Shown here: positions 261-54,983 of the stretch, piece by piece | Layout: each line of letters starts with the position of its first letter | Position numbering within the stretch: position 1 is the stretch's first letter | Assembly (NCBI GenBank): GCA_914767715.1 | Contig: OU612075.1 | Coordinates: 6,942,001 to 7,006,000, forward strand | DNA length: 64,000 bases | Direction: 5' to 3' | Source: Membranipora membranacea | Lineage: Eukaryota; Bryozoa; Gymnolaemata; Cheilostomatida; Membraniporidae | The notes under the pieces: model-generated | What the model was told of the DNA's origin: nothing | What the model saw: only the letters and a program-made list of their open reading frames with translations | Database searches by the model: none | Program-made: the position numbers and the translations under genes

Positions 261-3200
261 ATTTTTGAATGCATATTTAAGTTTCCTGACGACATATTCT
301 GCAAACTGCCGTTCCTCAACAAGTGTGATAGTGAAACTACCAATTGTCTGTTTACCTGTGTCCTCAGGCCAGTACACTGCGCATTTTAGCTGTGAGGATA
401 CAAAAATGTAACAGTTATTGTAATATTACATATTATTATTTAACTAAAATTGAAACAAGCAAGATTTGAGCATGTGTTCATGAAATGCACATTTTATCAC
501 TGGAGAAATGTTTGTCGCATTTTTCAACAACACTGTTAAAATTTGAAAGTCAATCAGTAAACCAGAAATCTAGGAATTGGCTGAGATTCATCATTTATTA
601 CCTTTCCAGCCTCTATTGGATTAGTGAGCATCACAATTGTTGACGTCGTTGTGTCATGTATGAGTCTCCACATGTCCTCCATTGTGGTTTTGATCGGTCC
701 TGCAAGTGTAAGATGAATAGCAGGTGTAAATATGTAGGAATTATCAAAAATATATTTTGTTGAGAGAGATCATAGGGAAATGTGGTCCCGTGCTGTAAAG
801 GTTGGAGGCTCCTGTCATAACATTGTCAGGAAGATTTGGCTGATATATATAGTGTTCTTGATGACCAAATAAGGTTCTGTGTTTTGATCCGATGTATATA
901 CAAGACACTGGCTCTAGTATTTGACCTATTCAAATATAATCAAAACAGTGAAGTTTTTTTACCCAAGTATAAAACTGGGTATATCAGCTGCAGTAATACT
1001 CAAACCTATTAATATTCCTACCTTGTGATGCTATAAAAAGCTCTCTTCCATTGTAATCCTACCAACAAAATGTAAATCATCAATTAAACAAAAAATTTGG
1101 GAAAAAAATTTCATATAATGTAATACGAGGACAATCAAATCAAGTTTGAAACATGGCACCAATTTATTATCAAGTTTTGTTCCTTTTGCTAGTGAATTAG
1201 ATTTTCTGTAAAATCTTAACAAAATATAGTTCCACTTTTAGCTGGGATTGGTGATGTCTTGGGGCGATGATTAACTAGTAATTTGGTCTGTCAGTTAGCC
1301 TGTCTTGACAAGCTTTGTTCGGATGGGGGGAAGCTTTGTCCCCCCCCCCCAAGACAGGCTAGTCTGTCAGTGTAAACAGATATAAGAAGTAGCGGGATAG
1401 GTATCGAGTTACTCCTTGGGGATAGGCATTGAGTCATATCTTATTATCTATGTAGGAAGTCGGTATAATTCTAACCTTGATATAGTTGGCATTAACATAA
1501 TCACTATCATAGCCGTGTGAAGTGTCCAGCTTTACCCGGTTTTCGTCAGCTTAAAAAACGAACCACAAGATGAATGTTCGAGCCTTTCAACCTATCAAAT
1601 TATCAACGACAACATGCATTTATGTATTTTATGTCTAAGACATAATCATTTTCATTGTTAGTCTTTATCTTCCATATTTCTTCTTTTATTTATCATTGTT
1701 TTGTCTTGGCTTACTCGGAAGAACATCATTTTAATGATGAAAACTGCTTGTTTAAAATAAAAATCCAGGATAATACATTAAAATAATGGAAATGGTAGCT
1801 TTGGAGAAAAAGACAACACAGTCATCATAACAATTGCGAAAAGTGCGGAAAATATTGCCAGATGACCATAATGTAAAGAAATGTGCCTGATACTTACTTG
1901 CAGTAATATTTTTAAAACTGTTTTTGGCCACATTATTTGGTATCCTGCCGATTTTGCAAACAAGCTCTGGACTTCCAACTCTCTGAGAACAAAATGCAAG
2001 CTATAGAATGTGTTCAATCAGGGAGTTACAGGTAACTCCTTGGTTCAATGCTCGAACATATTTTAAGATGACACTTGCACCATGAATGAGATCTAAAGTG
2101 CGGTAAAAGTAAGATGTACTACATCCAATTGTGAGTAACGTGGCTCCCCACATATTTTACTGAAGATTGAAGATTGAGTGTTTTAAAGTTGAAGAAAAGA
2201 TTTGCTCAGTTTAAATGAAAAATCAATAAAAGATTTTAGACTGGAAATCAGTCCAACAATTTGGAGTTAGCTACTCAAGTTAAGTGTTTTGAACAAACAA
2301 CTCCAAACAATAACAAACTTTAACTCATCAGCCAATCAAAACAAAACCAAAACACAAGCACATTGGTCATGCTAAGCAGAAATGAGTAGATAACACCACA
2401 GTCCAGTTGTTTTGAAGAATTTATTCTGAAGATAAGAGTTTTAAAATTGAAGATTGCTCTATTTTCTCTGAAGAAAATGAAGACAGCCTTGTGTGCAGGG
2501 AGCCCCAGTAACTATGGACTCATTTTTTTTGCAAATGCATCAAATTTCATCAAGATTCAAACCTTTTACACAGTTGCACCTCTCCAAACTCTTTAATTTG
2601 CTTATCAGGATGAACCTGTAGATTATTGCCGAACTTATCAACTTACATCAAATTCTTCTCTGAATGGATGAGTCGGATTGTCCTCATGTTCTGCTTGTAC
2701 AATCTTATATATATCAGTAACTGGGATATCATGTGAATCAGGCAATTTGGAGCCCATGTTCTGATATGTGTCCCCTTCTTCATCAATCATCTGTCTGTGT
2801 TTGGGGATGGGTGGTGCAGTCCCACTGTTAGAGCCATTTTTGACCAGAGGCTTGATAGCTCCAACAGGCTTGACAGGTTGGAGCGGTCGCTCAGCATCTG
2901 AGAATGGAAATCATTTATAAGGAATCAGATAAATATAAAGAATGCACAATCATCTTATTTATGTTTCTCAGACACTTAATTAAGTTCTTTTAATTCTCTT
3001 AATTTTTTTAATTCTTTTAATTCTAGTAATTTTTGCAATTCTTTTATTGCTTTTAACTGTTTTAATTCTAAAAAATTATTTTGGATTCTTCTTATGGAAT
3101 TCAATGTTCTCAGAGTATTGACTGGTATGGAAGCCCCATAGAAGGTACCGTATTTTATCTTCTTCACACGGTATAACAAATTGTAAACATCAATTTCTGA

Positions 3201-11351: not shown

Positions 11352-11389
11352 CAATATATAGTATCGGGTATAATTAGTTTCTCATAGAC

Positions 11390-14110: not shown

Positions 14111-14129
14111 TTGCCCTCAGTTTGCAGGC

Positions 14130-17910: not shown

Positions 17911-17914
17911 ATAA

Positions 17915-19113: not shown

Positions 19114-21195
19114 TCACTTCACCCCAAAGTTGGAGTAGTCATTGAAATCCGACAGGTAGGAAGACACAAAGTCATACAGAAGCTCAAAGCTTTCCTGGAA
19201 ATACAAAAATGATTAGATGATTTGTAGTCTAACGTACCTTTTCTAAGTTTAAGTAACTATTCAAAAAAATAGCTCACACCATCCCTTGGTAAAGATTCAT
19301 TTTCTACAACATATTTTTGAGATTGTAACTAACAATTTGATTGCGAAGCCAACATAACACAGCCATATCTAGGATAGCCGTATGTGTTGGAAAGGAGTGG
19401 AAAATTTGTAGCAAAGTCGCCTGTGCAGTAAACATATGTACACATTAGCTCATCAATTCATAATATAGGAACTAAATTGAAGCAACAATGCACTTACATA
19501 ATCGGGAATGAACTGAGGACGACTTCGACGGGCCAGCTTTAGTTCTAGTACAATGTCCACCTCCTGTTCAATTCTGGCTCTCTGATACAGATTCAGGGCC
19601 ACTATAAGAAGACCAGTCAGTCTGCTACCATTCCTGTAATTATATGAAGATTGAAGATGAAGACGGAATAAACACATTCCCACACTACCACCGAGACTAC
19701 ACTTTTAACATGTGTATTTCTCATCGTCAGAGTCACTTTTAGTGTGAGTACCTAACATGTTCCTGCCCTAATTGATGAAACTGACGTCGGTCATCACATC
19801 AACTTCCCTCTGATGGTACTCATGCTAAGTGAATTAATTCACTCTCCATCAATCAGATATATACATACAATACTATATCACATATATGCTTAATAATACA
19901 AAATCTTATTATGTCTATGTGATATCACATCATCAGTGTGATACATTGCAACTGTTTTGAAAGTCGCCTAAGTCTTAATAACATGCTATACATTTTGGGA
20001 AATAGATAAAGAACATTGGTTATCGAACAGTTGTATAATTTACCCGCATAGCACAGTAACGACATCATGTCCCGATGTTACATATTTCTCTAGTTTAGTG
20101 CACAGACTAACTAACTGAGCTGCTGAGGGGAGGTTACTTCTCATCTTTACTTCAATATGCAGCACTTCACGAGTTATCTATATGTATGAGAATAAAAGTC
20201 ATCCATCAATAAGTGAGTACTTTTTTTGTTATGACCTTACCTACAGCTCATCCAAAACGACTGTCACAAGGTGCCAATTGCTATATATATATACCTATGG
20301 TAGTTTGAGATCTGGGTATGGCACGTTTGAGATGAGTGCCATGTTGTTAGATTAGGAATTTTAGAAAAACTTCTGATGTGATACAAAACATATGATAAGC
20401 AATAATTTTAAAAGCGACTCAACCTATTGTACTAGGGATCTCAGACTCATTTTGCACTTAAGAGTAACATAGTCATAGCATGTCCCTTTGCTGTCAATCA
20501 TTTCGAGCACAATACACCTCAAAGCCAACAATCACAAATGTGAATGCGGATGGCTGTTGGTTCACCTTGGAGCTAGTCGAGCACAGTAGTGTGGTTTCTG
20601 TAGCGCTGAGGCCGTCAGCAGTTCTCTCCGTGATCTGGTTTGATGAGAGACACTTCACTTTTATTTCAGAATATGTCTGTGGTGTATCAAGTTCGTCAGG
20701 CCAATAGAGGTCCTCATCCTGTTAACAAATAAGGGGTATCTGTTAGGGGTTGGAAGTTGTCCTTCTTCTATACACAAGCTATTTGCAACATTTTAGTACA
20801 ATACGGTAAAAACTTTCTGGTTTTTTTTAGACTGGTTGTGCAAATCATAACTAAATATCAAACATTTGGATACTATGTCATGTTGACTTTACCATGGTGT
20901 AAATCAGTTAAACATGTGGGCTCAAATACGAATAAAATATATGAGATTTATTATGTATAGTAGTGATATTATTTTCAACCATTTTCAATCACAAAAAAAG
21001 TCAAAATTATGATTGGATACCGGTTGTAGTCTAGCCACACTCACCAAGCAATCATTCAGATAGACAATGACAGATGTCTTCTTCTCTATGATCAGAGACC
21101 AAAAATCTGCTCTGGTGTCTGGGAATGGTGTTTGTGTAGCAATGAAACCTCTCCTCGTCTGATAGGACTGTAGACAAGAAAAACACTGATATATA

Positions 21196-21470
21196 TTCAC
21201 GGATTAGGGTAACATATCTGACCCTGAGCAGGCAAATGGAAATTTATGTATGATTGCTGGATTCGATTTCTCATCTTTGATTGGCTCAAAAGTTCAGTAA
21301 TGTTACAACCGACCCCTGGCAGAACATTTGTCAAGTAGCTTGCCTGAGTTTTTAAAGATCGTTGCTGGGATATCAACCAATGCATAACGTTTAAGATGCC
21401 AGAATTTTTGCTAGATCCGATTACTGACACCAAGTTATAAAATACTGATTTGATTTTTCCACCGATAGCC
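21196..21470. repeat. Dispersed 250-bp repeat, copy 2
   Basis: Inverted relative to 3,706-3,968. It sits in the gene B intron between exons 23 and 24, close to the exon 24 acceptor. No open frame is shared by the copies, so it is probably a non-autonomous element. Confidence 0.6.
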
Positions 21471-23465: not shown

Positions 23466-23485
23466 CCCCCCCCCCCCCCCCCCCC
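23466..23485. repeat. Poly-C tract of 20 bases in gene B intron
   Basis: An unbroken C run lies 27 nt left of exon 20 of gene B, close to the splice donor. Similar runs occur near 1,350, 62,578 and 63,681, and a G run near 56,512. Run length may be uncertain in the assembly. Confidence 0.85.
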
Positions 23486-30754: not shown

Positions 30755-30781
30755 ATAATAATAATAATTATTATTATTATT
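30755..30781. repeat. (AAT)n/(ATT)n microsatellite
   Basis: AATAATAATAATTATTATTATT, an inverted triplet repeat, ends about 12 nt from exon 6 of gene B. Confidence 0.8.
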
Positions 30782-31387: not shown

Positions 31388-31396
31388 TAAAACATC
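31388..31396 (-). other. One-base deletion in gene B exon 5
   Basis: Exon 5 of B is 344 nt, while the A and C exons are 336 and 354. Translation follows the family up to SDVLVF and then continues correctly (LPDFTQPYYARIQVV) only in another frame. Alignment with A and C places a single missing base in this interval. The downstream exons are phased for the uninterrupted frame. Confidence 0.85.
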
Positions 31397-32446: not shown

Positions 32447-32465
32447 ATATATATATATATATATT
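32447..32465. repeat. (AT)n microsatellite
   Basis: A short run of AT dinucleotides in the gene B intron between exons 3 and 4. Confidence 0.8.
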
Positions 32466-33009
32466 TATCTCTTCAATAGATATATCATTTCCTATTTATT
32501 GTCAGCGGACCTATATAGCTTATAAATAGGCGGACTGACAGGACAGGCAATTATGCATTCCTTATCTACCAGAAAACCTACATATGTAACTAACAAAGAG
32601 GCTTGCAGTTAGAAGGAAAGGTAAATGGTAGGTACAGTATCTAAAACAGCAAAACACAAAATAAGTTTGTTAACTCACCAAGGTACCAGTGAGGTCGATC
32701 GAAATACTGCCAATCGTTATTTGATTCGCTTAGTATGTTGTCATCGTCAGAGCGTTGGTTTACAAGTTGACACATCTTATTACTGTTTGATTTAGACTTG
32801 ATTACTGAGCGACATTTCGCACTTCCGACATGATCCACACATCTACTCATACAACTTCTGAGATTGTCAGTATCAGACTCATTAATCTTGCTAACTTTGT
32901 TGTTGAGGTACCGGCCTTTGACAGCAGTCCATGGCTGCCAGGAACCTGATAAAATGAATGTTTGTGTAAATTTGAATTTTATATAAAGGTAATATGTGCA
33001 ATATCATCA

Positions 33010-33225
33010 ACCTAGGGGAGTAAATATTGGCTAGAGTTTAAATAAGCTATTGGAGGTGACTTAATATTAGCTAGCGCCCTTATTTTTAGACTTGTCAATT
33101 GGTCACCTGTTTATCTTGGTTGGTTTGATGAAGAAAGGACGGTGAGTAAATGTAATTTTAAGACTGTGGCAAATGGCAAACTTTTTCTCCTGTGAATACC
33201 TTACTACTATAGGGTTTGTGATCAG
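33010..33225. repeat. Intronic repeat related to 10,690-10,965
   Basis: Second copy, between exons 3 and 2 of gene B. It has the same TTTCxCCTGTGAATAC end block. No coding content. Confidence 0.4.
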
Positions 33226-38773: not shown

Positions 38774-41700
38774 TCACCTCACACTGAAGTTGGAGTAATC
38801 ATTGAAGTCAGAGAGATAGGAAGATACAAAGTCATAAAGAAGCTCAAAGCTCTCCTGAAAATATAAAAAAACCAGTGTCGGATCTCAGCGAAGAATATAC
38901 AACTACTTTTTGTGAGCTCATATAACTCCATGCAAAGCTACTGGCTAGATATTTTGATGCCACAACTCTCTATTTAAATTTTTGACTGGTGGCGCTGCTG
39001 GGCAAAGCCCAGCTGTGTCAGCAGTAGTTTAAAGGCATTTGGCAATGTTTTGTCAGTGGTTTATGTGACAAGATTCTGGTAGTAAATTTCATTCACTTTT
39101 TTCGACTTTTGGATATGTAAGATGAGATCTCAGACAGACTATAGTTCAGAGCTCCAGACCCATTTATTGTGGAAAGGGAGTGGTGATTTCTTTTGCAGAC
39201 GACTACAGATGGCAATAAATGAAAGCGTGCACTACATAGACCATCGCCAACTTATGTAAGTACACAGTATGTAACAATAAAACACTTACATCATCAGCAA
39301 CAAACTGAGGTCTACTTCTACGAGCCAGCTTTAGTTCTAGTACAATGTCCACCTCCTGCTCAATTCTGGCTCTCTGGTACAGATTCAGGGCCACTATAAG
39401 AAGACCTGTCAGTCTGCTACCATTCCTGTGATAAAGAGAATATATCTGAATGCATAAATGGATGTTACGAAAAGTGTAGTCTTACCTGTTATAACAGCTT
39501 ACCCTCAACCTTGCATGCCACCATGGTCATTAGTTTATTCAAAAGACATTCTTCCAAACATTGTTTTTCGCAAATAACATGATAATTTTTTTCAATTTTT
39601 AATTTTTTTTGTTTTTATGGCTAATATTGTAGAACATTCTTCGAGAATGAAAATTATGCCAATAAAGTATTAAAAGAATATCTGTAGATTATCATGGGAA
39701 GTATCTCCGAAAAACAAAAAAAAACCTTGAGAATGTTGATAACAGCAGAAAATTCTCATAGCAAGCGAGATAATGAACTGGAAATAGGTTGGAATGATGA
39801 TCATAACTCAGTGTCTTAGTTTACCTGCATAACACTGTGACGACATCACGTCCTGATGTAACATATTTCTCTAGTTTGGTACACAGACTAACAAGCTGAG
39901 CTGCTGAGGGGAGGTTACTTCTCATCTTTACCTCAATATGCTGAACTTCATGAGTTATCTGTGTACACGAAATCGAAAGGAAAATTAAGTTGAGAGTACA
40001 AAAAGTATGAAAATTCTCTGTCCCAACACCAAAAAAATACATAACTTCTTCTATCAATGTTACTATTTGCGAAAGCCAATGATAATACAACTGTAATTAA
40101 ATTAGGTCAGCTTGTTGCACCACTCCTTGTAACAAATTTATTAGTACGACTGATGACAAATGAGGCTGTAGCCATTTCAAAAGCCCTGCTGTCATTGATC
40201 TTGAACCTTGCTAATATTGTCCAGTGTATTTGCAATGGAATTTTGTTGATTTAAAGTTTGAAAATTTTTTTGCAGAAAATCTAGGTGGACACTTTTAACC
40301 CTTACTCACAAATATGGAAGAGCAGGAGCATACCATCATTTTGAGTGGTCAAGTTAAAGAAATAGTCAACATAGTTTGCATGTAACGCAATGAGAAATAA
40401 ATATAGGTGTTGGACCAATGTGGTGATTCACCTTGGAACTAGTAGAGCACAGTAGTGTAGTTTCTGTAGCGTTGAGGCCATCTGCAGCTCTCTCTGTGAT
40501 CTGGTTTGATGAGAGACACTTCACTGTTATTCTAGAGTATGTCTGTTCTGCATCAACTTCTTCTGGCCAATAGAGGTCTTCATCCTGTTGACAAATATGA
40601 GACAATTATGAAGAGTTTGGAGTTGTCTTTTTGTAGGAGGAGTACTGGATTTTTGAAGCCTGGTCCTGAACATGATATTTACGATTATTTCAGCTTGAAG
40701 GAGATATGACAACTTTCTTATACCATTGTATAGCTCTTAATCAGACTGAGGGAACCAAAGGGACCTTGCAGGTACCAAACCTGGCATAAATTAAGGAGTT
40801 ATAATAGAAAATTTAGAGTTTGTGGGGTGACCATAGGGTAAATCCAGCGTTTTTCTCACCTGCAGAATGCGGAAGAATGAGGTATGTGAATGAGGCATGC
40901 GCAACAAATGATGAGAGCTATCCTCCAAAAATGCCTTATAAAACTAGATTATTTGAGTTAGGATATGATTTTTTAAGCTTACAGCCTCAACTGCACACTT
41001 GGAGGCTATGGTATAAGGGCAACTTTGAAGTCAAAAGTTTAATTTTCAAAAACTCTTAAAATTACAGAAATTTGTCAGCATCTAGAGAACCCACGAGGTT
41101 GTGCAACTTTTTGAGCTATTTTAAATGATATATGGTGACCCTGAACTTGTCGTTTCCACCAATAAGAGGACAATTCGCAGCTCTGATCACAAGCTATAAT
41201 ACTAGGCTAGATTCACAAGTCACTCTTACCAAACAGTCATTGAGATAGACTATAACTGGTGTCTTTTTATCCATAATCATCGACCATAAGTCTGCTCTTG
41301 TGTCTGGGAGTGGTGTTTGAGTAGCAATGAAGCCATGTCTTGTCTGATATGACTGTGGATAAGAAAATAAATTACACAGAACTGGATATTTATTAACATA
41401 TTTTACCCATAGTACAGGCAGTAAATATTGTCTATTACGTAAACTTTGGCATTAAACTCTTTGCTTTCACATACTGAGTAAAATTTTTAAATTCAAGGCT
41501 ATAGCAACAATTTTCTGTGTGGATCAAATTATCTAAGATCAAAAGGTGTCATTTAAAAAAATTAGTTTATTACCAGTACCACTCTAGCTACTTAATTACA
41601 TGAAATACTCACGTCAACAGTGACAGCATTTATGTAATCGTCTGGACTTGACCCTCCTGTGAGTAGAACTCTTGCACTATCCACTGAAAAGAAAAGATTA

Positions 41701-42113
41701 CCAAAGTTCTCAAATCATTTCTAACAGGTCTCACATTTATTGCGTTCTGCTTTACGGTCCACAGAGATGGTCCCTGATTAGATAGTTGGATTTTTTTTAT
41801 TCTTAACTAGTTAAAACAACAAGCAAGTGAAGGATGCTTGGTAGTACCCCTTAGTCTTTAGGACAGCAATACGATGGCCAGCAGAAAACTGCAAATCGCC
41901 ATTATTTTTCTTTATAACATCATGTCACAACCAGCATGTTTGTTTGTAAATTGATGAACAATCTAACTCACATGGTAGGATACTTTGGTCTCTGTTCTTG
42001 CCTTGGTTCTCCTCTATTTTACCATGAGAGTAAGCTGTCGGCTTGAGAATTGGTGAGGTCAGCCCCACTTTCTTAAACTGATCCTTCAGAATGGTCAGAT
42101 TTCCTCTCTGTGG
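38774..42113 (-). other. D2 pseudophosphatase domain of gene A (exons 22-28)
   Basis: The fold is recognisable from DDYINAVTVD, GFIATQTPLPDT, DLWSMI and VIVYLND. The WPD loop is gone (KMRSNLP stands in its place), and the signature loop reads VLCRNGSRLTG, lacking the histidine and having leucine where the invariant arginine belongs. Cys 1455 is kept. The C-R-x-G-S spelling recalls the inactive D2 of CD45. The domain is probably catalytically dead and may serve in dimerisation or substrate binding. The protein ends shortly after FNDYSNF. Confidence 0.88.
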
Positions 42114-45100
42114 CTATGAAGCAGTGAAAGAAATAATGGATTACCAAACACGGATAATTCTTTAATATTGTTTTGATCAAAAACAGTAATGATGTGGTCA
42201 CCTGTCTTGCTACAAGAATATAACTCATGATGTTGTCACGCTGTGATACGGTGTAATAATCGTTCACTAATTAAGAAGAACCGAAGAGCACAAGTTGCAC
42301 GAAATATCTTTTCAAATGAGGTTGTAACAACTATAACCCAGATGCAACCTTCCCTGCCCAGTAGCTAAGTGTGCTCAACAGCCGAAACAATGACCTGGGA
42401 GCTACATAAAGCCAATTGGATGAAGATATCACAGAGTAAGGATATGCAGAGGGGACACTTCAATGATCGTTATAGTGCCTGCGGTTTTTATCCACTGGGG
42501 GAAATTCATCAATCTGGCCACCTGCCAATTTCAGAATATATATAAGTTACAGTGGAGTTTTGTCATGCAGACATAGCCACCTTTGATAGGTCATAATTCA
42601 TTCTGTATTTATCCTAAAGACTGATTTCCAACTTTTCTGAAATGTCCAATCTTCAAGCTATACACCATATTATTGTCATTTTTTGCTAGGATACATAGGC
42701 TATGAGTAATCCAGGTTTTTAAAATGAGTTTTATCAAATAGATTTACATGGGGCTTAGGTCAAAGCACGGCCATTTCCTAATTTTGATGACCAGCCGTCT
42801 ATCAATTGTCACATGTAAATCTATATGAAAAAACTCATTTTAAAAACCTGGATTACTCTTAGCCTATGAATCCTAGCACAAAATGACAATAATATGGTGT
42901 ATAGCTTGAAGGTTGGACATTCCAACAAAGTTGGAAATCAGTCTTTAGAATAAATACAGAATGAATTATGGCCCATCAAAGGTAGGGATGTCTGCAAGAA
43001 AAATGTCATTATAACATATAGAGATAATGAGTTTTTGGCATCCAGCTGTGCACAATTTTCCCTCAGTGAATCAAAAGCCGCAGGCACTATAACTATCATT
43101 GAACTGTCCTCTCTGTATATCCTCACTCTGTGAAGATATCCACTAACAAAAACATCCCTTGCCAACAGTGTCAATATTATCTTTTGAGTTAGTTTAGACA
43201 AAATGCTTCCAACTGGCCTGTAGAAAACTGTTATATATGGCTTGATCCATCTTTTAGTGAGGCCCTGATGAATATAGATTTGATTCTAGCGACTGTTTTC
43301 TCGATTTTCCCTCCCACTTGACCTTTCATTACTCTGGTTGTAGGTGTGATATTCAGGTATGCTGGTCTGTTCTACTGTCTAATAAGACCAGAATGTTGTT
43401 CTCACCTGTCTCCATTTATCCAGGACATACTGGAACTGTGAACAATCTACAGCTGTATCACCACAAGTAAGCGCCTCTGATACAATACTGTACAGGAATG
43501 AGTACTGAGTCTGAAAAGGAACAGAAAAACTTTGTCTTACTGGCCCTATAGCTGCTCTAACAAAATTCTTTTCTTTTTGCAAAAAATGGTCTTGATGGAA
43601 AGCCTCAAAAAGTTCTAAATTGGTCTATCGTGGAAACAATATTCAAGGATGGCAACCCAGATGCCCAATGCAGCTGAATAATATCATGGATCAACAGTCA
43701 GCTACTCAGTTTGAGTTTTGAAAAGGTGGATAATGGTGCTTTTTTCCCATCCATCTATGCAAGAAAACCAGGCACGTTGTAATCCTTACTTCATTACATT
43801 GTCAAAAAACTCACAGCCGTTTGCACCATTTGTGTTCTCTGAAGTCTCATATTATGGACACATCTCATCACATTAATAGTCTGATGTCTGGATTTATTAG
43901 AGTCATGTGCCTCATCTACCAGGAGATCTAAGCCGATAAATGTTCCTGTACGACCCACTCCAGCACTGTAACAAATTAAGTGAATATATAAATAGATCAT
44001 CATCAAGCACAGTAAATGTTGACAGAAGGTCGACAGTAAATGTTGAACACAAGATCTTGTTGCATGTTCCAATGCGAAGAAGAAAAGTAGGGTCGGGCAG
44101 GGGATGGCAGAAGAGGTGAAGCAGGGTAAGGGAGTCTAACACAAGGTAATTGCATCACTTATTTATTTTCTCCAACTACAGGTACCTTTAACAAATAAAC
44201 AAGGGTAACAAGTCTCTTGAAGAGGCGGATGATAAGAGTTTCTTCTCTTGTTCGAAGGACAGATAATTTGAAAAATGGCGGTAAATTGTTTGTTTTTATG
44301 TCAAGGTAAAAAAAAACTCAACCCTGCTCAACTTGACCCTCAGTCCCACAAGGATGGTGAAGTGAGATAGTTAGGGGATAAATTGTGATGTAGGGCGTAA
44401 AATCGAGATCACCACAATTGTGGTGTTCCATATTTTACCTGCAATGAACAATGACGGGACTTTTGTGTGTGTTCATATCTTGTTTGACTCGATGTCTCAA
44501 GCTAAGAACTCCTGATGTTGTGGGTACTCCGTGATCGGGCCATTGGGTAAAGTGGAAGTGCTTAACGTGTCTAGCAGGACCCTGCAAAATTAAACTCAAA
44601 TGTCAGTATAAAAACAGGCCTGAGAAAGTATGTTTTACTCGCGCGATTTATAATTTTGCAAAAATAATTTTTTAGAACTCGAACTGGCACGATCAGAGTT
44701 CCACCTCACTGGCTAAATTAATGCACTCTGTATTGCATGTAATTCCTTAAAACTTACATTGCTGAAGGCATATTTAAGTTTTCTGACGACATATTCTGCA
44801 AACTGCTGTTCCTCGACCAGTGTGATTGTGAAATTACCAATTGTCAGCTTCACAGAATCTGCATCTGGCCAGTACACTGCACACTTCAGCTGTGAAGGAA
44901 TATCAAATACGCGAGTATAAAATGGATTATTATCATAGTTGATGAATTGTTGATTATTGGTGTAAATAAAAAGTTATTAATCATTGAAAACAAAAAAAAG
45001 GATATAAGCTGAGTATGTATGTGTACGGTATTCAAATTTGTTGTACCAACCTAACAAAAACTGTAAAAATTTGAAAGTAACGGAAGAAGAACTCGGATTA

Positions 45101-48100
45101 TGATTTATAAACGGATAGGATGACCTGAAACATTTATACCTTGCCAGCCTCAATTGGATTGGTGAGCATCACGATTGTTGATGTCTTTGTGTCATTGATA
45201 AGTCTCCACATATCCTCCTTTGTGCTCTCATTTGGTCCTGTAAGATTGATTGCATGTGTACAACATGGTGCTCAGGGAATTCCTCTATAACAGCGAGGTG
45301 GTTGGCTCTATTTAAATGACACCATTACTACCCGGACAAACGACACAGATGTGGCAAAATGTGTTGTAAATAGTGGCATATGAAAGAAAGTAATAGCCAA
45401 AGAAAAAACTTCTTATCAAAATAAATTAGTATTCAATGTTAATATCATATGGCCCATATAACGGTCTCTGCTCCAAGCACCTCTATATTTGATCACTCAT
45501 AAACTTCTAGATGGGTATTTGACGTGATCACCATTTTGTATGTGTCTAAGAGACAGAGTCTTAGTTTGACAAGTAATTAGACTGTCAATGTAAAGATGGT
45601 CAAGACCTAGCTTGATTGCACCTAAAATTTTTCGGATTGTGTTTTTGTCACATGTATGTAAACAGGTAAAAAGTGAGGTCAGGCAATCAGTGATAAAGGA
45701 TGCATTGAAACTGAACTAGGCTTTGAGCGGTAGTAAATACTAAATTTGACAATGTACATAAGTTGGGAGGTATTGGATAATATAGGTCAATCGGCTATGA
45801 AACCTCAGTTCATCATAAACTATCCATCCAAGAAATTTCATCTGCTCACACAAAATTATATTGGTACCATTTAGATTTAAAGAATATAAATTTTCAGAAT
45901 TGGCATATTGAGTGGAAAATAGCATTTTCCCGGGTTTAAGTAAGGTCGCAAACATATTTATAATGACCTCAAATGTTTTTTTTGGCTGCGAAAAGATGTG
46001 AATTCAAACTTATCATCAACATTGCTAGAACTCTGATCTCATCTTACCTTGAGAAGCAATGAAACGTTCCTTCCCATTGTAATCCTGAAAAAGAATTTAT
46101 TACAAATGCTAGAATGAGCTTTGTTCGAGCAGACGAAAACCCGAATCAAATGATACCAGTTCAGCATGATATTAACAATCTTACATATACCGCCTACAGC
46201 CAATAACTACACATTCAACAGCATCCATCTTAGTTAAAGTTTCAGCTTATGGTACTCGCTTTGAAATTAAACACAGGGTAAGGATCTTTCATATTGGTTG
46301 GTTAAGTTGTAAGAAGACAATCCACTTTTACATAGGATTAACAAAACAAATGCAAGAGTCATGTCATTAATGCAGTATGCTAAAAATGACGACCTGGCAC
46401 TATTCCACAGCAATAATACAGAATTAAATTTGCTTGGAGAGAGAATTTTAAAGCCAGATAAATCGGTGTATATATAAAATATGCACATTTTCATGTTGGA
46501 TTGGTGTGGGTCTGGAACTTGAACAAGGAACGAGGAACTAGTCACATGACGTGAGCTAGGCTTGCCATGGGAAGGGCTGTATTGGGATAGGTATCAAATC
46601 ATATTTAAAAACCATAAGGGAAGTTGACGTTAGTCTTACCTTGATGTAGTTGGCATTGATATAATCGCTTTCATAACCCTGAGAAACTTCCAACAACACT
46701 CTATTTTCGTCAGCTGGCAACAAAGAACCAATCGATGGATGAATATCTAGGCATCTAGTGTTATTCTACTGGCGAAATTATAGCATGTGAACGGCAGCAC
46801 ACCTGAATTTTGCATAGAACCAACATTTGGTTGAGCCGCAGTGAAATTGACGATGCAAAGTCTTTTTTTAAAGTTTATGGGCCTGCTACAGTGCAATTTT
46901 TATAATTTTAGATCAGGGGTACTTTCAATAATAAACAGTTAAAATCGCAATCTGATCGCGCAATCAGTGAGCTAGCGAGGCGTTCTAGAGTCTCGCTCAC
47001 AAATTTCTCACTCATCGTTAGAATTAATTACACTCTGAGTGAGCGATTTAGGAACGAATTGGCTGAAATAAAGTGAGCGATAAATTTGAGCGATGATGAC
47101 TTGCTTTAGTAGTTCTTATTAAAAGACCTCTGTATCCTTACTTGCAGTGATGTTCTTGAATCTATTTTTAGCAACATTCTTCGGTATCCGGCCAATCTTG
47201 CAGACGAGTTCAGGACTTCCGACTTTCTGCAAGACAAAGATGACAAAACAATTATACTTTTTAACAACAAAGTTTATTCACTCAGTGATGTGAGTCTGGT
47301 AGTCATCATTACAAATGAAAACAGGGCTCTTGCTTCTGTAACAACAAAGTTTATTGAAGGTCTTACAAAGCTGCCAACAACAATGCGATTGAGCTTTGAG
47401 TAGGCAGCACCAGCTTATTAAGACCACCTGGTATTGAAAAATACTTTTTGAGATGTGGCTGATGATAATTGTTACAAACAATAACTTACATTGAATTCTT
47501 CCCTGAATGGATGAGTTGGATTTTCCTGATGCTCTGCTTGTATTATCTTATACAGATCTGATACTGGGATATCATGTGAATCAGGTAAAGCCGAGCCCAT
47601 GTTCTGATATGTGTCTTCCTCTGCATCGGGCACCTGTCTTCGTGTGGGGACAGGAGGTACCGCCCCACCTTTAGAACCATTTCTTACTTGAGGTTTAACA
47701 GCAACTGCAGGCTTGACAGGGGTGAGTGGCTGCTCTGTATCTTAGAAATATGAAGAAGTATGCATGAGTAAGCCAATGGCTTATTTTCTGTGGTTCTCAG
47801 TGGTATTTAAGTGCAAAAGAAAGCACCAGTTAATGATTCCCCTCCAACATTAGTTTCGGAATACAGTGGTTATGTAGGGTGAAACATAGCCAGCCCTTGA
47901 TGTCATTCTGTATGGCGATCGCGGCCGGATGTTGTTTGTTCAATCCCTTAACAACCACCTACGGCGCCGATCGCCATCCTGAACGTCATTAAGGCTGGCT
48001 GTGGGGTGAACATGGAAAGCATGTAGGGTGAAAACAGAGATAGCTACAGAGAAAATAGTTAATAAATTACCACCAGAAAGGTAAAGAGATCACTAAAGTG

Positions 48101-51100
48101 TGTGCCTTGTACCCTTTCAGTATGTGCCTGTAAGTTTTGTACCTTGAAGTGTGTGCACAAAAGCTATTGCATGGTTGATAAATGGTTGACATCACAACCA
48201 ACTACCACTTCTACTAGCAAAGTTTGAGGAATTAAACTAAATGAGAGTGCAAGAAAGTCTACCTTCAAATGAACTTTCGACATGACTAGGTGCCTGTGTA
48301 CCTGGGGAGTCATAGTATTTGGGTCTATTTCTACAAAGAGATAACCATAGGACAAAGCAAGTTATACATACCTTTTGGTTTTGGTTTTGAGCTGTATAAT
48401 TGAGTAAAGAGAGATAAAATGCAGTTAAAACAAGACACAGTCAGCTGTTTGAATCATAGCTCAATTCAGGCATCTTTCAAGGAGGCTTGTTTTGAGAAAG
48501 TTTAGTATAAAATAAGTAAGCTACCAGTTCTTGTAATAGATAAATAACTCACTAGATCTACATGAGTATGAGAAAAAGGCAGCATGAAGCATGTTACACC
48601 GTTACTCATACTTCACTGGTTACGTAAGTATTAGGAGCCATAAGCATTAATATAAAGAATGCCAGTATTGTCTTTTGACAAGATACATCTGTTTGTGACT
48701 TACTTATGTCGGCGTCGCAGAACAAATATTACTGCTAATACCACTGCAACTGCAACTATCGCAGCAACCACACCTCCGACAATACCAGCGACCATACCGG
48801 ATTTCCCTCCACCATCTGTTGTTACTTCTTCAGTATTTCCCTCTCTTGGCGTGGAGGTTGGTGGTGGAGTAGTAGGAACCACAACTACAATTATAATATA
48901 ATATAAATGAATTGTAAAAGCAATAGCAATAGCAAAATTACAGAAGAAAAAAGGTAACTGCACACTAAAATCTTCGATTCGTAATGACGGGCAGGTTTCA
49001 TCTCACCCATCTAAGATCTTCAAAATTTTCAATTACTAAATATATGCTGGGCAGCACCCTAAAAGCAGTACCGGTACCCGTTTATATATTCTCCTAAATC
49101 TAGGTTTTTATGCTGTTTTGCTTTCATCACAAATGCTACGCAAAGTTTGTAAGAATTGGTATCAATTGGCATCTACCAAATATTTGACAGGTAAGGTATG
49201 TACACTCAAATGTCTAATGACAAAATCGCAAAAATTTGACAAAATCAACTATCAAAGATTTGGAGTTGTAGAATATTTCCCTTTCATACTACATACCCCT
49301 CAGTGGTGCCTGGTTGAGCTGGTAGAATTCTGTTACTTCCATTTCAGTGACAGCCTGATATCCCACATATATGGTATAGTTTCCTAGCCCAAGTTCCTTA
49401 TTTTCTACACCCCCATACATCTGACCATCACCAACACTGAATGTACTGTTAGAATCAGCAAGAGCTATTTTTGCAGCAATGTAGGTTCTTGTGCCATCTA
49501 TGGTAAGGTCAGACGTTGTAGTCGATCTTTTACGCCTAACTTTAGAAGCCCGCTGTACCACAATCCATAGGGTGTTATATCTCTGTTCGAACCTGTCGAT
49601 CACTGTGATATTAGGTAGCGTGACAGTAACATTGCTTTCGTACACTATCCGTTCCATACTTGAAGAGGATATATTCAGTGTTGGATCTACAATGGAGAAA
49701 CCAGAACAAAAGTTGTATAAGAGGAGGTTATCACTCTTTTAAGGTCATATAATTCCAATGTTCACAACGGATTGGCTTGCTAGATCGCAGGATTGTACAC
49801 AAACTCAATGCAATTTCTTAAATGTATATTGTGTTTGTCAAGAAGAAAAACCTGCCAATCTTGAAAGGCTTGTCAAGTGGTTAGCCACTGTCTCAGAAAG
49901 TAAGAGGAAGACAGCATGTCGAAGCAATGTGCGGGAGATAATTTGATCAGTCACAGATGTTTTGAATTCCATTGCAATGCTGATTGTCATTGGTTATCGC
50001 TTACATTCAGGTTTAGTCCATAGAGATATAATCTTGGAGCTGTTGCCATATCCTCCATTCTCAAGTAGAGCTTTAACCTGACACTCATACTGAACCTGAG
50101 GAAGCAGTCCACTCATCTCAAGGTTAGATATGTCTGGTCTATTAGTAGTGAAAGTCAGCTCCTCAGGATCTGCATCTATATTGAACGTGTTGTTTGCTAC
50201 TCTGCAGTCTACCTGTAATGTCATTAGAAGCTCGATTCTATCTCCATGTTTTGCATGAGTGATACTGCGATGGTAAATATATATTATAAACTCTAAATTC
50301 TAAATATTTGTTTGTGGGCCACGATTCATAAAACTGAAAATATTGTTAAATTATCATTCACTCAAATCTCGTAGTCTTGCAATGTACAGTTGAAAGCTTA
50401 ATGGTAAATGTTGGATACAAAGATGCAGCAAGGCAGCTTTCATAACTGATGTGGCTCAAAGGAATATTTCACTTTGAATCTAATTTTTGTCATGAAATAG
50501 TTACTAAATTGGAGACTGCGTCACAAACCTGATATTTACTGATCGTCGCATCAGTATAATGTTCAATAAGAGTCCACTCCAGTGTAGCTGAGTCATTACT
50601 CCGTCCTGCAGTTTTGAGACCAGTTGGTGCTCTGGGAACTACAAGTAAAAATCACAAGCCTACCTCAAAAGACATGACATTGAAGATGGAAACTTCCCAG
50701 GATAAATAAATACATATGGACACTCTTATTGGCTATATTAGCACTCCACAACAGTAAATCACAAACCATGCGATGCGAAACTTTTATTTGCCGTAGAACT
50801 GAGGATTCTCATTAGGATTTTGTTCAGTTGCTAGAGAGCCATAGCAATTCAAATTCCCTAACGGCAAATTATTCAATAATATTACAACGCTTTTGACAAT
50901 CACTTCCATCTTTACCTTCCTTTGTTGTATAGGATTTGGTCCAAACTTGCTGCTGATAGCTGCCAATTAGATTGGTGGACAGTGTAATAGTGAAATTAAC
51001 ACCCTGAGTTTTATTAAAGCTCCATGGTCCTGACTTAGGCTGAGTACCCAATGTTCCTGTCTGATATGTAATTCTAACCGTCTCAACACAACCGTCACTC

Positions 51101-54100
51101 TGTAAAATGTCATGGGGTAGTGTAATTTTAAACGGATAATGCAAAGAAGAAGCAATACTTTATTTATTAATGGTACTGGGGAGTTACTGAATGTTCACAA
51201 TTAATCTCAGCATCTAAAGTCTACATTGTCAACCGTAACAGGTGGTGCTGACTTATGTTCTTGTAACAATCAAAGGAACCAGTTTTAATGCTATGTTGGT
51301 GACCAGCTAGAAGAGACATCATTGGCACCAATTCATAAACCAGAGGGAATTTGCAAACTATGCTTGTATCAAGAAATCAGAAAGAAAATCAATATTTGCA
51401 ATGATCCTTTGTATGACTTACCAGATGAGGGGTATTAAGGCTGACAGTGCGTTGTTCTCCAGGCCTGAGCACACCTGACTCAACAATGTTCACCTGGCTA
51501 TCTGTCAATATCGGGCGCCCTGTTATTAAAATAATACACTGAATGACGCTAGTTGCATTTTTGATGCTAATTGCAGAGGTTTTCTTCGGCTGCACATACT
51601 TTACAACTCTTTTTTTCACAAGTATATTTAACAGTTGTAACATTCAATGCTTATATTAATTCAACAACATCTTCTCCCAAGCATTTCTTCTCTGAGTCCC
51701 ACTTACTTGCACAAAAATCCTTAGGATCAGAATATTTATCATCAAAGACCTCTTGTCCATTAAAATTCCTCACAACCTGTATTCTGGCATAATAAGGTTG
51801 AGTGTAGTCTGGCAGAGTGAGAACAGCAGATCTCTCAGTCTCTGGGCTGATAGACTGGCTACAGATTAACTCCTGGTTAAAACCACTACTTGTAGAGCAT
51901 ATTATCTTAAAACCTCCTCCTTTTATATTCTGCATGCTGGCCTTATCAGACTTGTAACCTTTCGGATCACCCCAGGTTAGCTGGACACTTTTTTCTGTCA
52001 CACTATTTATGTTGGCAGAAACTCCATCCACAGCCAAATATTCTTCAAAATAAATTATTCATTCATAAATAACCTCAGAAATTGGTGTAGAAACTCCATT
52101 AATCAGCTTGATAAGTGGTAACGATAATAAGACTTGAAAGACACCGAGGCTTGTGATTTTTGGATATTGTGACCCAACAATATTGGGACACTACTGATTT
52201 TGTAGTGAGATTATCTTTCTATGTGTTGTAAGCCTCCCTTTGGTTACTGATATCTTTTATTCACTTACCAGCCACAAATGGACGAATGGAAACTGATCTT
52301 CCTCCCTGATTATTTGTGCCAGTCTTTGTTGTCAAAAGGTTGTTTACTTCAATGTTTTGTACTTCCAGAAAATTGCCGTAGTATGCGTCACTTCCGCCTG
52401 TAGCAAATGTCACCAGATTTCCAGCACACTCACTGCTGTTCTTTACAAAGATTGACGGTGAATACCCTTGGTTTACCTTCACAACTTTGTCAGTCACAAA
52501 ATGGAAATTGGCTTTGCCAAGTCCTTGCTCATAGTTTAGCATAGTGTAATCTATGAGTTTGAAGTCCATGCTGGTTCCACTTTGTTCCCACACCGCAGCG
52601 TAGGTCTCACATGGTAATTTTTCACCAGAGGATCGAGTGAAGTATTGCCATGCTACTAGATATCCATCAACATCAAACTTATTGCTATACATGATTACAT
52701 AGTCATTGCCTCGGTTTCCTCTCTGACTGATTGTCATACCTGAGACACCAACAGCTTCATCTACCAACACATTTGGTAAATCATACTATAATACGGGATT
52801 ATTCAGGGTATTCAAGATGGATACATCAATGTCTGTCTTTGTTGTATCTATCTTGAAGGCTCACTTGACCTACAAAGTACAGGTATAGTATTTTGGGAAA
52901 TTTCAGGCAGGGGGGATAACTGTCAAATATTTTTGACAAGAAAGGCACCTTGTCGTATCAGATAGAGTACAGATTTGAGCTAAGAAAAACTGGAAAAATA
53001 ATACTTGCATTTTCCGAAACTCTTAGTAGTTATATTTTCCAATTTATCCAAATTATATAGTACATTGACATTGAGGATTGATTTCGGATAAAAATAATGT
53101 TGGGTAGAAAGGTAGGTACCATAGGAGCCAAATAATTTTGGAATCTTACGGAGGTACCAGTGTGGTCGGTCAAAATACTGCCAATCATCACTTTCTTCAC
53201 TTTGTACGTTGTCATCATCAGACCGTTTATCCAGGAGTCCGCAACTCTTGTCACTGTTTAATTTGATTATTGAGCTACAGTTAGTGCCATCAACATGATC
53301 CACACATCTACTCATACAACTTCTGAGATCATCAGTGTTGCTGTTGCTTATCCTAACAACTCCAGTGTTGAGATACTGTCCTTTTTCAGCACTCCATGGC
53401 TGCCAAAATCCTTAAAATAGAAGTAATCATATAACAGGTCATTGCAATGAACAACTTTCACACCTGTTGACTGAACTGCCAATTGCCATAATTGATTCTC
53501 ATTTTTCTCCTTAAACTAGTGTTTTTTTGTAGTACTGGCTCCATTGAGTGGGCTGAGGGTTAAGGGTAAGGACCATAGATTTAAAAAATCTATGGTAAGG
53601 ACATATGATCTTATGATCCAGGTTGAATTTTGATTCCTGATTTGGCACTGGCAAGCCATTCATCCTAACCAGGTTTGTTCGGATCAGGACTATGAATACA
53701 GGAGGTCGACTGTGCGCTTGCATGCAGTATAAAGATCCCCCTCTGCCTGTTCAAAAAATAGAAGCCGACAAGGCCGGACAAAGGTATAAGGTATCTACAC
53801 AAGCAACCTGTACCTATGGAGGCATAGGTCGGTCAAATAAAAACTAGTGCGTAGAAAGAAAGAAAGACAGTAATTACCTGCACAGATAGGTCTAAGCGAG
53901 TACTGGTAGTTAGGGTCGGTCTGAGGTTCTGCTGTCTGATTATTCTCCTCTAGTAGCTCACACCTCCTGATAGCCGCTCGGTAATTTACAGCAGCACAGA
54001 TAAAGGTGCTCTCTTTTTCACATTTTGTCCGACATTCAGCCAGACCCTGTCCTTCATCAAGAGTCACAACTTTAGGAGCACCAGATATGTATGGGTCTAG

Positions 54101-54983
54101 TTTCTGGCCTGCTTCGGTAACCCATATACAAGGGAAAGCTACAACAAAAAACAAAACAATGTAATTGAAGTATTCATTAGTAATGCATGTTGTGAGACCT
54201 CCCAGAAAGACATCCATATGTAAAAGTGATCGCTACCAAGAGTTAACATGTCTTTAATTGGAAATGATTGTTCCTATCGCATTTCTGTGAAAGGTACCCA
54301 TAGACTACCATTCACTGCCAGCATAAGGGCTTGCTACTTATTTTAGCGTCTTAAAGAGTTGTCCCGCCTTTGTGCAAGAATGGTTAACTCCCTATATTGA
54401 CTCCGTGGTTGGCAGATAACAGTTAGCAAAGAAAATTGGTACTTTTGAATAACATGGCACCCAGAAACTATTCACTGGAAACGATAAATTCATCATGCCA
54501 GAAAATCTTAAAGAACAATGGCCAGTTAAATTAACAAACGCGATTTGGTATCTTTAGAAATCTTCACAGATCTCTAAAAATATGCTTCATTACAATATTT
54601 CTGTAATCCAAAATTTAAAAATGAAATAGTTGGTATACCACAACCAGGTGTCTAGAGTGTTGCAAAAAATTGCGTTTTTTTAAACTCGTTGCTATAACAT
54701 TTACTGGCAACATTAGCAAGTGCCAACTCACTCCATTTGACTTCCACAATAGTAAAATCACCGTTTTCCATTAATTTTGGGTGGCCTTTATAAATGCTGG
54801 ATAATTCCAGTTGTTAGGATGAAATTGTCTTCCAATCTGATATTAAAATACTTTCAATGATGAAGGCTTAAATATTAATATGAAATGCATTAAGTTTTAC
54901 TTACCTTCGGATTGGCAGAGGTAGTGAAAGGACAGGGTCACTAACACTTGGATATATCCTCGGTGCAATGATCCTAACATCAT
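38774..54983 (-). CDS. Gene A: complete PAN-domain receptor-type tyrosine phosphatase, 28 coding exons, 1,527 aa
   Basis: Exons in transcript order: 54905-54983, 53878-54138, 53150-53410, 52269-52760, 51707-52042, 51422-51519, 50916-51099, 50529-50638, 50005-50212, 49297-49686, 48704-48884, 48263-48330, 47490-47740, 47142-47226, 46640-46713, 46048-46084, 45140-45237, 44758-44889, 44439-44581, 43815-43965, 43406-43510, 41972-42113, 41613-41683, 41230-41352, 40432-40584, 39825-39958, 39290-39425, 38774-38854. I placed every boundary at a GT/AG site. Phases match throughout and the sum is 4,584 nt. Domains by residue: signal peptide 1-26; PAN-like 27-113 and 114-200; unrecognised domain 201-364; beta-rich modules 365-570; FN3 571-676; membrane-proximal RPTP domain 677-806; helix about 837-862; juxtamembrane 863-973; D1 about 974-1248 (WPD 1129-1131, Cys 1162, Arg 1168); D2 about 1249-1527. 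It should dephosphorylate phosphotyrosine proteins at the plasma membrane. The start is the first of two adjacent ATGs and both paralogues share it. The ligand is unknown. Confidence 0.92.
42430..43132. mobile_element. 703-bp palindromic DNA transposon in gene A intron 21
   Basis: The ends are CACAGAGTAAGGATATGCAG and the inverse of CACAGAGTGAGGATATACAG. Nearly the whole element folds on itself (arms of about 340 bp). AAGATAT stands on both sides (42,423-42,429 and 43,133-43,139). A second copy of the same length is at 58,777-59,479. No transposase frame. Confidence 0.88.
43406..47226 (-). other. D1 catalytic phosphatase domain of gene A (exons 14-21)
   Basis: Motifs in order: KNRF (residues 993-996) at the place of the phosphotyrosine-recognition KNRY, so Tyr is replaced by Phe; DYINANYIK; FIASQGPN; TIVMLTN; CAVYWPD; WPDHG (general-acid Asp 1131); VHCSAGVGRTG with Cys 1162 as nucleophile and Arg 1168; then the Q-loop stretch RTQMVQT followed by TQYSFLY. 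All residues needed for catalysis are present apart from the conservative Tyr to Phe change, so D1 should be active. Introns split the domain into eight exons, and the codon just after the catalytic cysteine spans a junction (44439 / 43965). Confidence 0.9.
46915..47130. mobile_element. MITE of the GGGTCTTTCAATTAGAA family next to a splice donor
   Basis: In reverse orientation this matches 55,458-55,703: shared blocks are CAATCTGATCGC, a TCAGTGAG block, CATTCTGAG against CACTCTGAG, GAGCGAT and GACTTGCTTTAGTA. Its right end lies about 11 nt from exon 14 of gene A, just past the donor. Confidence 0.65.
47490..47740 (-). other. Juxtamembrane signalling exon with PxxPxR and YQNM motifs (gene A)
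   Basis: Exon 13 is 251 nt in all three genes (26489-26739 in B, 2647-2897 in C). In A it carries PPVPTR at residues 918-923, a class II SH3-ligand pattern kept in B and changed to PPIPKH in C. YQNM follows at residues 934-937 (47,598-47,609; 26,597-26,608 in B; 2,755-2,766 in C), inside a DTYQNMGS block identical in all three. When phosphorylated, YxNM fits both the Grb2-type YxN and the PI3K-p85-type YxxM SH2 ligands, as in CD28. The exon ends with the helical lead-in to D1 (HPFREEFN). Confidence 0.7.
47885..48004. mobile_element. 120-bp hairpin MITE in gene A
   Basis: CATAGCCAGCCCTTGATGTC...GGCGATCG on the left is mirrored by CGATCGCC...GACGTCATT-like AACGTCATTAAGGCTGGCTGTG on the right. 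It sits in the intron between exon 13 and the mutually exclusive exon pair. Confidence 0.6.
48263..48391 (-). other. Mutually exclusive juxtamembrane exons in gene A: 68-nt exon 12 or 20-nt microexon
   Basis: Exon 12 (48263-48330, 68 nt) and a microexon (48372-48391, 20 nt, AG before and GTATGT after) both turn phase 2 into phase 1, so either can link exon 11 to exon 13 in frame. Using both, or neither, breaks the frame. Only 41 nt separate them, too short for an ordinary intron, which would prevent joint use. Exon 12 adds a tyrosine-bearing segment with KYYDSPG; the microexon adds a short basic SKPKPK. Both read through into the same aspartate. Confidence 0.65.
48704..48884 (-). other. Stalk and transmembrane exon of gene A
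   Basis: Exon 11 (phase 1 to 2) codes a Pro/Thr-rich stalk, then a helix of about 26 small and hydrophobic residues (837-862; GIVGGVVAAIVAVAVVLAVI is its centre) and a basic stop-transfer run RRRH. The counterparts are 28102-28279 in B, ending RRQQ, and 4152-4257 in C, where the Pro/Thr stalk is much shorter and the stop-transfer is KH. The single helix puts the PAN domains outside the cell and the phosphatase domains inside. Confidence 0.88.
49297..49686 (-). other. Membrane-proximal RPTP domain with furin-type cleavage site (gene A exon 10)
   Basis: This 390-nt exon has the same length in B (28789-29178) and C (4572-4961). It carries the pattern seen just outside the membrane in LAR-like and R2B RPTPs: a TYIAAKI strand, then VGDGxxYGG, NKEL and YxIYVGYxAVTE. 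Residues 727-730 are RRKR followed by serine. The matching places are RQRR in B and RRNR in C. In known RPTPs proprotein convertases cut here to make a two-chain receptor that stays non-covalently joined. Cleavage in this family is an inference from the motif. Confidence 0.75.
50005..52042 (-). other. Beta-rich modules and FN3 domain of gene A ectodomain
   Basis: Exon 5 (51707-52042) codes a symmetric module with an LTWGDP segment and a YYARIQVVRNFNG strand, loosely FN3-like. Exons 6-7 (51422-51519, 50916-51099) share one split module with an LRPGEQR motif, a PWSF motif and a YQQQVW strand; its family is uncertain. Exons 8-9 (50529-50638, 50005-50212) together form a typical FN3 domain: SATLEWTL early, then YxCQVKALLENGGYGNSS and a WTKPE end. 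The intron inside the FN3 domain falls at the same codon in all three genes. Confidence 0.6.
52269..52760 (-). other. Single-exon ectodomain of about 164 residues, family not recognised (gene A)
   Basis: A 492-nt symmetric exon (phase 1-1), the same length in B (31881-32372) and 468 nt in C (8304-8771). Residues shared by all three include a DGYLVAWQY core, C-x-TYAAVW, LIxxTxLxY, a CAGNL motif and a closing VSxRPFxAG. The pattern of alternating hydrophobics with two conserved cysteines suggests a beta-rich disulphide-bonded fold. I do not recognise the family. Its one-exon, phase 1-1 form marks it as a shuffled module, and it is the largest unit of the ectodomain and so a candidate for ligand binding. 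Confidence 0.6.
53150..54138 (-). other. Two PAN/apple-like domain exons of gene A
   Basis: Exons 2 and 3 are each 261 nt and symmetric (phase 1-1), one domain per exon. The first has the pattern CxxxC, a STFICAAVNYR segment and a CELLEE segment before a closing cysteine (RPIC). The second has SCMSRC, a cysteine in NCSS and a further CGLL segment. This matches the spacing of the PAN/apple fold, which binds proteins or carbohydrates in other extracellular receptors. Counterparts are 33520-33780 and 32679-32945 in B, and 9978-10241 and 9209-9484 in C. The PAN call rests on cysteine spacing and motif resemblance, without a profile search. The first domain is clearer than the second. Confidence 0.7.
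54905..54983 (-). other. Signal-peptide exon of gene A (same 79-nt exon at 34502-34580 in B and 11273-11351 in C)
   Basis: Each gene opens with ATGATG, a short polar or basic stretch, a hydrophobic core and a GT donor after exactly 79 nt, giving phase 1. The hydrophobic run (VLVTLSF in A, VLVILTLF in B, VLVILTIF in C) fits a cleavable signal peptide. On the minus strand a pyrimidine-rich stretch and AG lie 38-56 nt upstream of the ATG in all three (exon edge at 55,039, 34,621 and 11,389). The coding exon is therefore probably preceded by an untranslated first exon, and the promoter lies further right. Confidence 0.8.

Follow-up and report, generated by a model that had tools for sequence, protein, structure and literature searches.

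A tandem family of genes that join PAN domains to a receptor-type tyrosine phosphatase (RPTP) is present in the genome of the bryozoan Membranipora membranacea. The window, i.e. the whole stretch of 64,000 nucleotides that was analysed (contig OU612075.1, positions 6,942,001 to 7,006,000), harbours, on its minus strand, three paralogues whose exon blocks correspond to one another, in agreement with an earlier note that had proposed a tandem family of PAN-RPTP genes. That note counted three adjacent genes; the tandem set is indeed present, but with the neighbouring genome included it amounts to five near-complete copies on one strand (Z, A, B, C and D), B being broken and C cut by the window edge. 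A tract of ~0.8 kb of the ectodomain-coding region has passed between the lineages of A and B, in one direction or the other. We consider it reasonably probable that these genes form a bryozoan tandem family of adhesion or recognition RPTPs, with a PAN-PAN-X-FN3 ectodomain and exchangeable exons.

Organization of gene A

Gene A extends on the minus strand from position 54983, its start codon, at which the stretch 261-54983 ends, to position 38774. The model, built from genomic sequence, comprises 28 exons (numbered 0-27) with GT-AG borders for 27/27 introns, and the spliced frame is open from start to stop, coding for a protein of 1527 residues. Exon 0 (54905..54983, minus strand, like all exons below) contains the start codon and a putative signal peptide and ends in phase 1; the hydrophobicity of this N-terminus stays < 1.6, and that of the N-terminus of C reaches a KD value of 2.01. 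Exons 1 (53878..54138) and 2 (53150..53410) code for PAN domains 1 and 2, with six and four Cys residues, respectively, exon 3 (52269..52760) for a domain hereafter called X, and exon 4 (51707..52042) for a part of the ectodomain without domain assignment in the Pfam scan. Exons 1-4 and exon 9 have phase 1 at both ends, which permits exon exchange without loss of frame. The region between X and the stalk consists of exons without assigned domains, which also include exons 5-6 (50916..51519), and of an FN3 domain (residues 574-668; Pfam fn3, E 1.8e-9) coded by exons 7-8 (50005..50638). Exon 9 (49297..49686) codes for the membrane-proximal RPTP stalk, identified with a stalk profile, in which a motif scan located a furin-like RRKR site at residues 727-730. 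The single transmembrane helix of the protein (19-residue stretch > 1.6 at position 844, mean KD 3.24), followed by RRRH, is found in exon 10 (48704..48884). Exon 12 (47490..47740) contributes the juxtamembrane region, with a proline-rich stretch and the sequence DTYQNM (Y934), exons 13-20 (43406..47226) the D1 phosphatase domain, and exons 21-27 (38774..42113) the linker, the D2 domain, the C-terminal DYSNF motif and the stop codon.

The PAN domains predicted in two ectodomain exons were recovered with the Pfam PAN_1 profile, which scores above its cut-off in exons 1 and 2 of gene A. In the spliced protein, PAN_1 was detected with an E value of 1.4e-10 and 41.3 bits (cut-off 21.4), in two stretches at the limit of E 1, together with fn3 and with Y_phosphatase (E 1.2e-113, two stretches), confirming the observation that PAN and RPTP domains belong to one open gene model. 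Exon-wise Pfam scans placed A PAN1 (E 7.5e-8), A PAN2 (E 2.6e-5) and B PAN2 (E 7.4e-6) above the curated cut-off; C PAN2 scores 16.7 bits, below it, and copy D has one PAN stretch better than E 0.01. Among PDB sequences, a profile of the PAN1 exons of the three genes found the PAN region of plasminogen (E 9.8e-4). The PAN2 profile retrieved nothing credible from the same source (best E 1.7), and the spliced gene A ectodomain matched no PDB chain at E <= 0.001, the best E value, 0.049, corresponding to an FN3 match. The PAN Cys spacing occurs five times in the six frames of the window, in 5/6 predicted PAN exons (the exception being C PAN2), and is absent from 30 shuffles; this pattern was defined after the exons had been viewed, which makes it a weak control. 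The AlphaFold model of PAN2 is of low confidence (pLDDT 43.3).

PAN_1 exons are also found at other sites of the genome, a search over 339.3 Mb in 18 contigs having yielded at least 142 matches, as 150 of 500 candidates were scored. Those close to the window on contig 11 are at 6.84, 6.95, 6.98, 7.00 and 7.02 Mb, and dense clusters are present elsewhere, e.g. on contig C10 (16.68-16.76 Mb) and contig C6 (8.10-8.40 Mb). Eight 3 kb loci compared with the array exons harbour only weak PAN1 matches.

The single-exon domain X had been described as unrecognised, and our searches agree with this description. The exon scan assigned it to no Pfam family, no credible match was found among PDB sequences (best E 0.28), and NCBIfam profiles gave only 14-15 bits for cut-offs of 420-850. 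A domain X profile run against 121 proteins yielded no significant match beyond protein P0001 of Watersipora (see below), itself part of the profile, and the AlphaFold model is of low confidence (pLDDT 51.9).

The D1 domain of A harbours the receptor-type PTP motif set (KNRF, WPDHG, HCSAGVGRTG and QTATQY), and its D2 domain is degenerate, with LCRNGSRLTG and without the catalytic Arg. The nearest solved structures to the phosphatase part are D1-D2 structures of RPTP alpha, epsilon and sigma/LAR-type. The stalk profile (exon 9) matches Bugula P0006 and LAR-type RPTPs; Fn3_PTPRU was detected in the Bugula P0006 stalk (E 2.4e-7), and A exon 9 alone is under the cut-off (E 0.046). A stalk site of the R-x-K/R-R type is common to A, B, C, D, Bugula P0006 and Watersipora P0023, and none was found in the Watersipora P0001 and P0007 models. 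By analogy with LAR and MAM-type RPTPs, furin would cleave the protein at this site. The Y-x-N motifs of A, at Y934 and Y1521, might likewise bind Grb2, as in RPTP alpha; this motif is present in the juxtamembrane region of 5/5 copies, and A, B and D have it at the C-terminus as well. LAR (R2A) and MAM-type (R2B) RPTPs thus resemble A by their FN3-type stalk, furin-like site and tandem D1-D2, but they have Ig or MAM ectodomains and neither PAN nor X. No Ig or MAM family was found in gene A at E 1 (Pfam).

The tandem array and an exchanged ectodomain tract

Gene B (19114..34580, minus strand) is a paralogue of A with two lesions of the reading frame: exon 4 (31620-31277) is frameshifted by loss of one base, and exon 14 (25633-25560) contains an in-frame TAA. 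Its exon 11 was not found, the best local scores (23 and 23) being below the maxima of 29 obtained with 100 shuffles each, with a score of 81 for the A-C control. Exons 0-17 of gene C are in the window (261..11351, minus strand), the last of them at 389-261, and the gene runs on past the left edge to 6,936,251; it is open (1508 residues), with GT-AG borders for all introns, the motifs HCSDGVGRTG and KNSF, and YSTF at the C-terminus. Copy D (6,842,829-6,818,601, same strand as A) is also open (1506 residues, all introns GT-AG), in a model with manual choice of the borders of exon 10 and of a shifted acceptor for exon 12. Copy Z (7,024,073-7,007,685, same strand as A) is damaged, with HCSAGVGPTG, a changed C-terminus and loss of the exon 11 donor (GA for GT), and its exon 10 is known only as an open frame. 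Open from end to end are therefore A, C and D, and 2/5 copies (B and Z) carry lesions. HCSAGVGRTG is common to A, B and D. Given the lesions and the HCSDGVGRTG and KNSF motifs of C, only A and D have motifs that make active signalling secure.

Between C and D, contig 11 also harbours an orphan 3' fragment with exons 21-27 (6930167-6932867) and a lone signal-peptide exon (6926108-6926185). No array exon was detected at E 0.001 in the segments 6,912,001-6,922,000 and 7,026,001-7,036,000. The survey covered the region from 6,815,001 to 7,036,000 except for 67 kb between D and C (6,845,001-6,912,000), and further copies are thus possible in this gap and in the flanks.

The window contains several repeated elements. 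A 718 bp element is present in two copies with 97.8% identity (42425-43142, within intron 20-21 of gene A, and 58772-59489), each palindromic, with 81% identity to its own reverse complement. Another palindromic element (37081-37570) is 80% identical to its own reverse complement, and an inverted pair (15408-15927 / 17403-17910) shows 92.7% identity. The segments 57335-59880 and 61729-63857 are direct copies that have diverged (piecewise identity 71-77%), without a clear conserved open frame, and probably represent a repeat; these duplicates at 57.4-63.9 kb are not copies of the RPTP array.

The exchanged tract of gene A (51975..52767, minus strand) comprises exon 3 together with the intron that follows it (3-4) and the beginning of exon 4. 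The A-Z alignment extends over most of the gene, with 6540 non-exon bases, but no segment touches exon 3, and it resumes 68 bases into exon 4. The A-B alignment includes 789 non-exon bases only, 243 of them in the one segment (52767-51697) that spans exons 3 and 4 with the intron between them, and Z has no alignment to the exchanged tract. Since this tract of A aligns to B and not to Z, while other exons and introns of A match Z, ectodomain exons have moved between copies. A and Z are the nearest pair in D1 exons 13-17 (97% identity), exon 12 (94%) and the stalk (88%), but are just 47% identical in X, with a saturated dS. Identity in X is 68% between A and B, and 41-48% in 9/10 copy pairs.

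We ran topology tests with all 15 trees of the five copies on six segments (signal peptide with PAN1, PAN2, X, exons 5-9, D1 and D2; short alignments of 276-1008 nt), for which uncorrected p-AU values are given. X favoured the A+B grouping (A+Z, p-AU 2.9e-5), and exons 5-9, D1 and D2 favoured A+Z (A+B, p-AU 0.0055, 0.0019 and 1.7e-44, respectively). The segment including the signal peptide and PAN1 clearly grouped C with D and weakly rejected A+B (0.034), and no tree was singled out for PAN2. As for the remaining copies, D1 prefers C+D and D2 prefers B+C (A+Z with C+D, p-AU 0.0054). Chance or long-branch attraction as the source of the conflict in X is disfavoured, because the intron next to X, which serves as an independent check, also aligns A to B.

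A second sign of patchwork is found in C and D, which are 96% identical in the signal peptide (dS 0), 90% in PAN1 (dS 0.11) and 43% in X. A and C align through introns around exons 21-22 (41450-42381) and 16-17 (44750-45244), with 219-305 non-exon bases per segment, possibly as further exchange tracts or a repeat. Tandem duplication would have given rise to the copies, and ectodomain exons would have been moved by gene conversion or unequal exchange, aided by their symmetric phase 1-1 borders, while D1-D2 were kept under strong constraint.

Relatives in Bryozoa and in amphioxus

A search with the full gene A protein, which finds only relatives with shared five-residue words, retrieved three proteins: P0001 of Watersipora subatra, named receptor-type tyrosine-protein phosphatase alpha-like, an ant RPTP and one further protein. 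With an ectodomain profile that included a piece of P0001, the latter was the sole match among 6215 candidates at E 0.01. P0001 is 47% identical to gene A over 39% of gene A and, like it, harbours PAN, the X motif GYLVAWQYY, D1 with HCSAGVGRTG and a degenerate D2. Unlike A, it has one detected PAN domain, neither FN3 nor stalk nor transmembrane helix in the model, in which no hydrophobic segment was found, and WYD for WPD. The latter replacement, with the aspartate retained, is found in D1 of both P0001 and Watersipora P0007, which may be a linked pair, since the longest contig has the same length (66,307,180) for each. The PTPRM protein of Bugula neritina (P0006) has the same exons as A from exon 6 to the end, with an RKKR stalk site, a transmembrane helix and D1-D2; unlike that of A, its model, from a 21 kb contig, begins after X, so that any PAN region would lie outside it. 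Watersipora P0023, a kappa-like RPTP, has three stalk units alternating with two or more FN3 units.

These models bear on whether the ectodomain and phosphatase exons might be separate neighbouring genes. The exon joins are known from genomic sequence alone, which would be compatible with such an arrangement, but the order and phases of the exons are the same in the five copies, except that exon 11 is defective in B and Z, PAN, X and D1-D2 are joined in the single gene model of P0001, and the P0006 model spans exon 6 to the end. We therefore regard separate genes as highly improbable.

We built a tree from 33 D1 sequences, namely those of A, of a portion of B, and of 31 proteins chosen from 122, C being left out. 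A and B form a clade (100/100) with one protein of Bugula and three of Watersipora, and this clade adjoins Lingula (90/87). A sponge origin was set aside in view of this tree and of the search with the full protein. Vertebrates, which the earlier note had used as its frame of reference, are thus not the appropriate one, since the clade places the family among Bryozoa. Judging from this phylogeny, the lineage of the gene family is bryozoan, and the sequences collected so far point to a PAN-X ectodomain present only in Bryozoa. The proposal of a lineage-specific family therefore stands for the ectodomain, so far found only in bryozoans, but not for the combination of PAN and RPTP, which also occurs in amphioxus models.

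Those amphioxus RPTP models, P0047 and P0106, have PAN_1 at the start (E 3.5e-9 and 5.9e-7, respectively), followed by MAM, EGF, Sushi and FN3 domains, and we accordingly rejected the idea that the combination of PAN and PTP is unique. PF00024 was found in three of the best 120 of 6837 matches, namely P0001, P0047 and P0106. Like A, the two amphioxus proteins have PAN behind an N-terminal leader, FN3 domains, an RKRR site and D1-D2; unlike A, they harbour MAM, EGF and Sushi domains, and their D1 belongs to a PTPRA-like clade. Two related models, P0045 and P0054, start only downstream of the PAN region. A common origin with the amphioxus PAN-RPTPs was rejected, as a joint D1 clade costs 68.6 log units (p-AU 4.2e-6). 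PAN would thus have been added to RPTPs on at least two occasions, provided that the amphioxus models are right; lancelet gene models are described as error-prone (PMC4967905).

Literature searches with phosphatase wording and 'PAN domain' found no PAN-domain RPTP, and no paper was found on RPTPs in bryozoans. The term 'apple domain' was not found among the matches listed, and 'PAN domain' does not appear in the accessible sections of PMC11788884. The view that no PAN-first RPTP class has been described thus agrees with the literature searched, but P0047 and P0106 do begin with PAN.

Selection and possible roles

Pairwise dN/dS values between copies are 0.23-0.85 from PAN1 to the stalk and 0.06-0.15 in D1, the ectodomain diverging faster than D1 in these comparisons, in line with the ectodomain divergence described earlier. 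No measurable value is > 1 among the copies; positive selection thus finds no support in pairwise dN/dS, and diversifying selection is not demonstrated. The dS values are saturated for several pairs in X, in exon 4 and in other parts of the ectodomain, dN/dS is undefined for the C-D signal peptide (26 codons, dS 0, dN 0.02), and decay of B and Z may raise some of the values.

We propose that the signal peptide would direct the receptor to the cell surface and that furin-type cleavage in the stalk would generate two associated chains. The distal PAN-X module might bind a ligand, either protein or glycan, in the matrix or on an adjacent cell, and ligand binding would alter clustering, with the active D1 dephosphorylating nearby substrates. 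The degenerate D2 could serve as a scaffold, and Grb2-type SH2 adaptors could dock at the juxtamembrane and C-terminal Y-x-N motifs. The exchange between copies suggests that variation among the ectodomains is favoured or at least tolerated. A role as recognition receptor may be inferred, to which the exchange of the X tract adds more weight than divergence by itself, but exchange of this kind is also found in arrays that lack such a role.

Two other explanations differ from an adhesion or recognition family with exchangeable exons mainly in the role that they assign, and the probabilities of all three overlap. The array may consist of ordinary developmental adhesion or matrix RPTPs that were duplicated, with a less constrained ectodomain and incidental exchange. 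The dN/dS values, none of which is measurably > 1, and the resemblance of the stalk, the furin-like site and D1-D2 to those of LAR/MAM-type RPTPs are consistent with this explanation. Nothing decisive speaks against it; the X tract rules out mere divergence with no exchange at all, but incidental exchange is compatible. We regard this explanation as quite possible, though less likely than not.

Alternatively, the array might be a polymorphic self/non-self or immune recognition locus, in which exon exchange between copies would create diversity and alleles would differ between colonies. The evidence comes from one haplotype only, no measurable dN/dS is > 1, and tandem arrays that have no recognition role also show exchange between their copies; we consider such a locus rather unlikely. 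It would nevertheless agree with the exchanged ectodomain tract, with the broken copies and fragments, with the divergence of X in all but one of the copy pairs and with the Bugula neritina genome paper, which gives only weak similarities to Alr1 (PMC7576161). The intron alignment firms up the exchange and not the role, and the standing of the various explanations is therefore unaltered by it.

RPTP ectodomains would have been remodelled with PAN modules on at least two occasions in animals, in bryozoans and, if the gene models are right, in amphioxus, and the bryozoan PAN-RPTP genes form a tandem array with an ectodomain tract exchanged between copies. Bryozoans are colonial animals, for which a recognition role suggested by these sequences would be attractive, and to our knowledge their self/non-self recognition genes have not been identified. 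The PAN-RPTP array offers a concrete, genotypable candidate recognition locus, whose phosphatase output would be unusual among such receptors.
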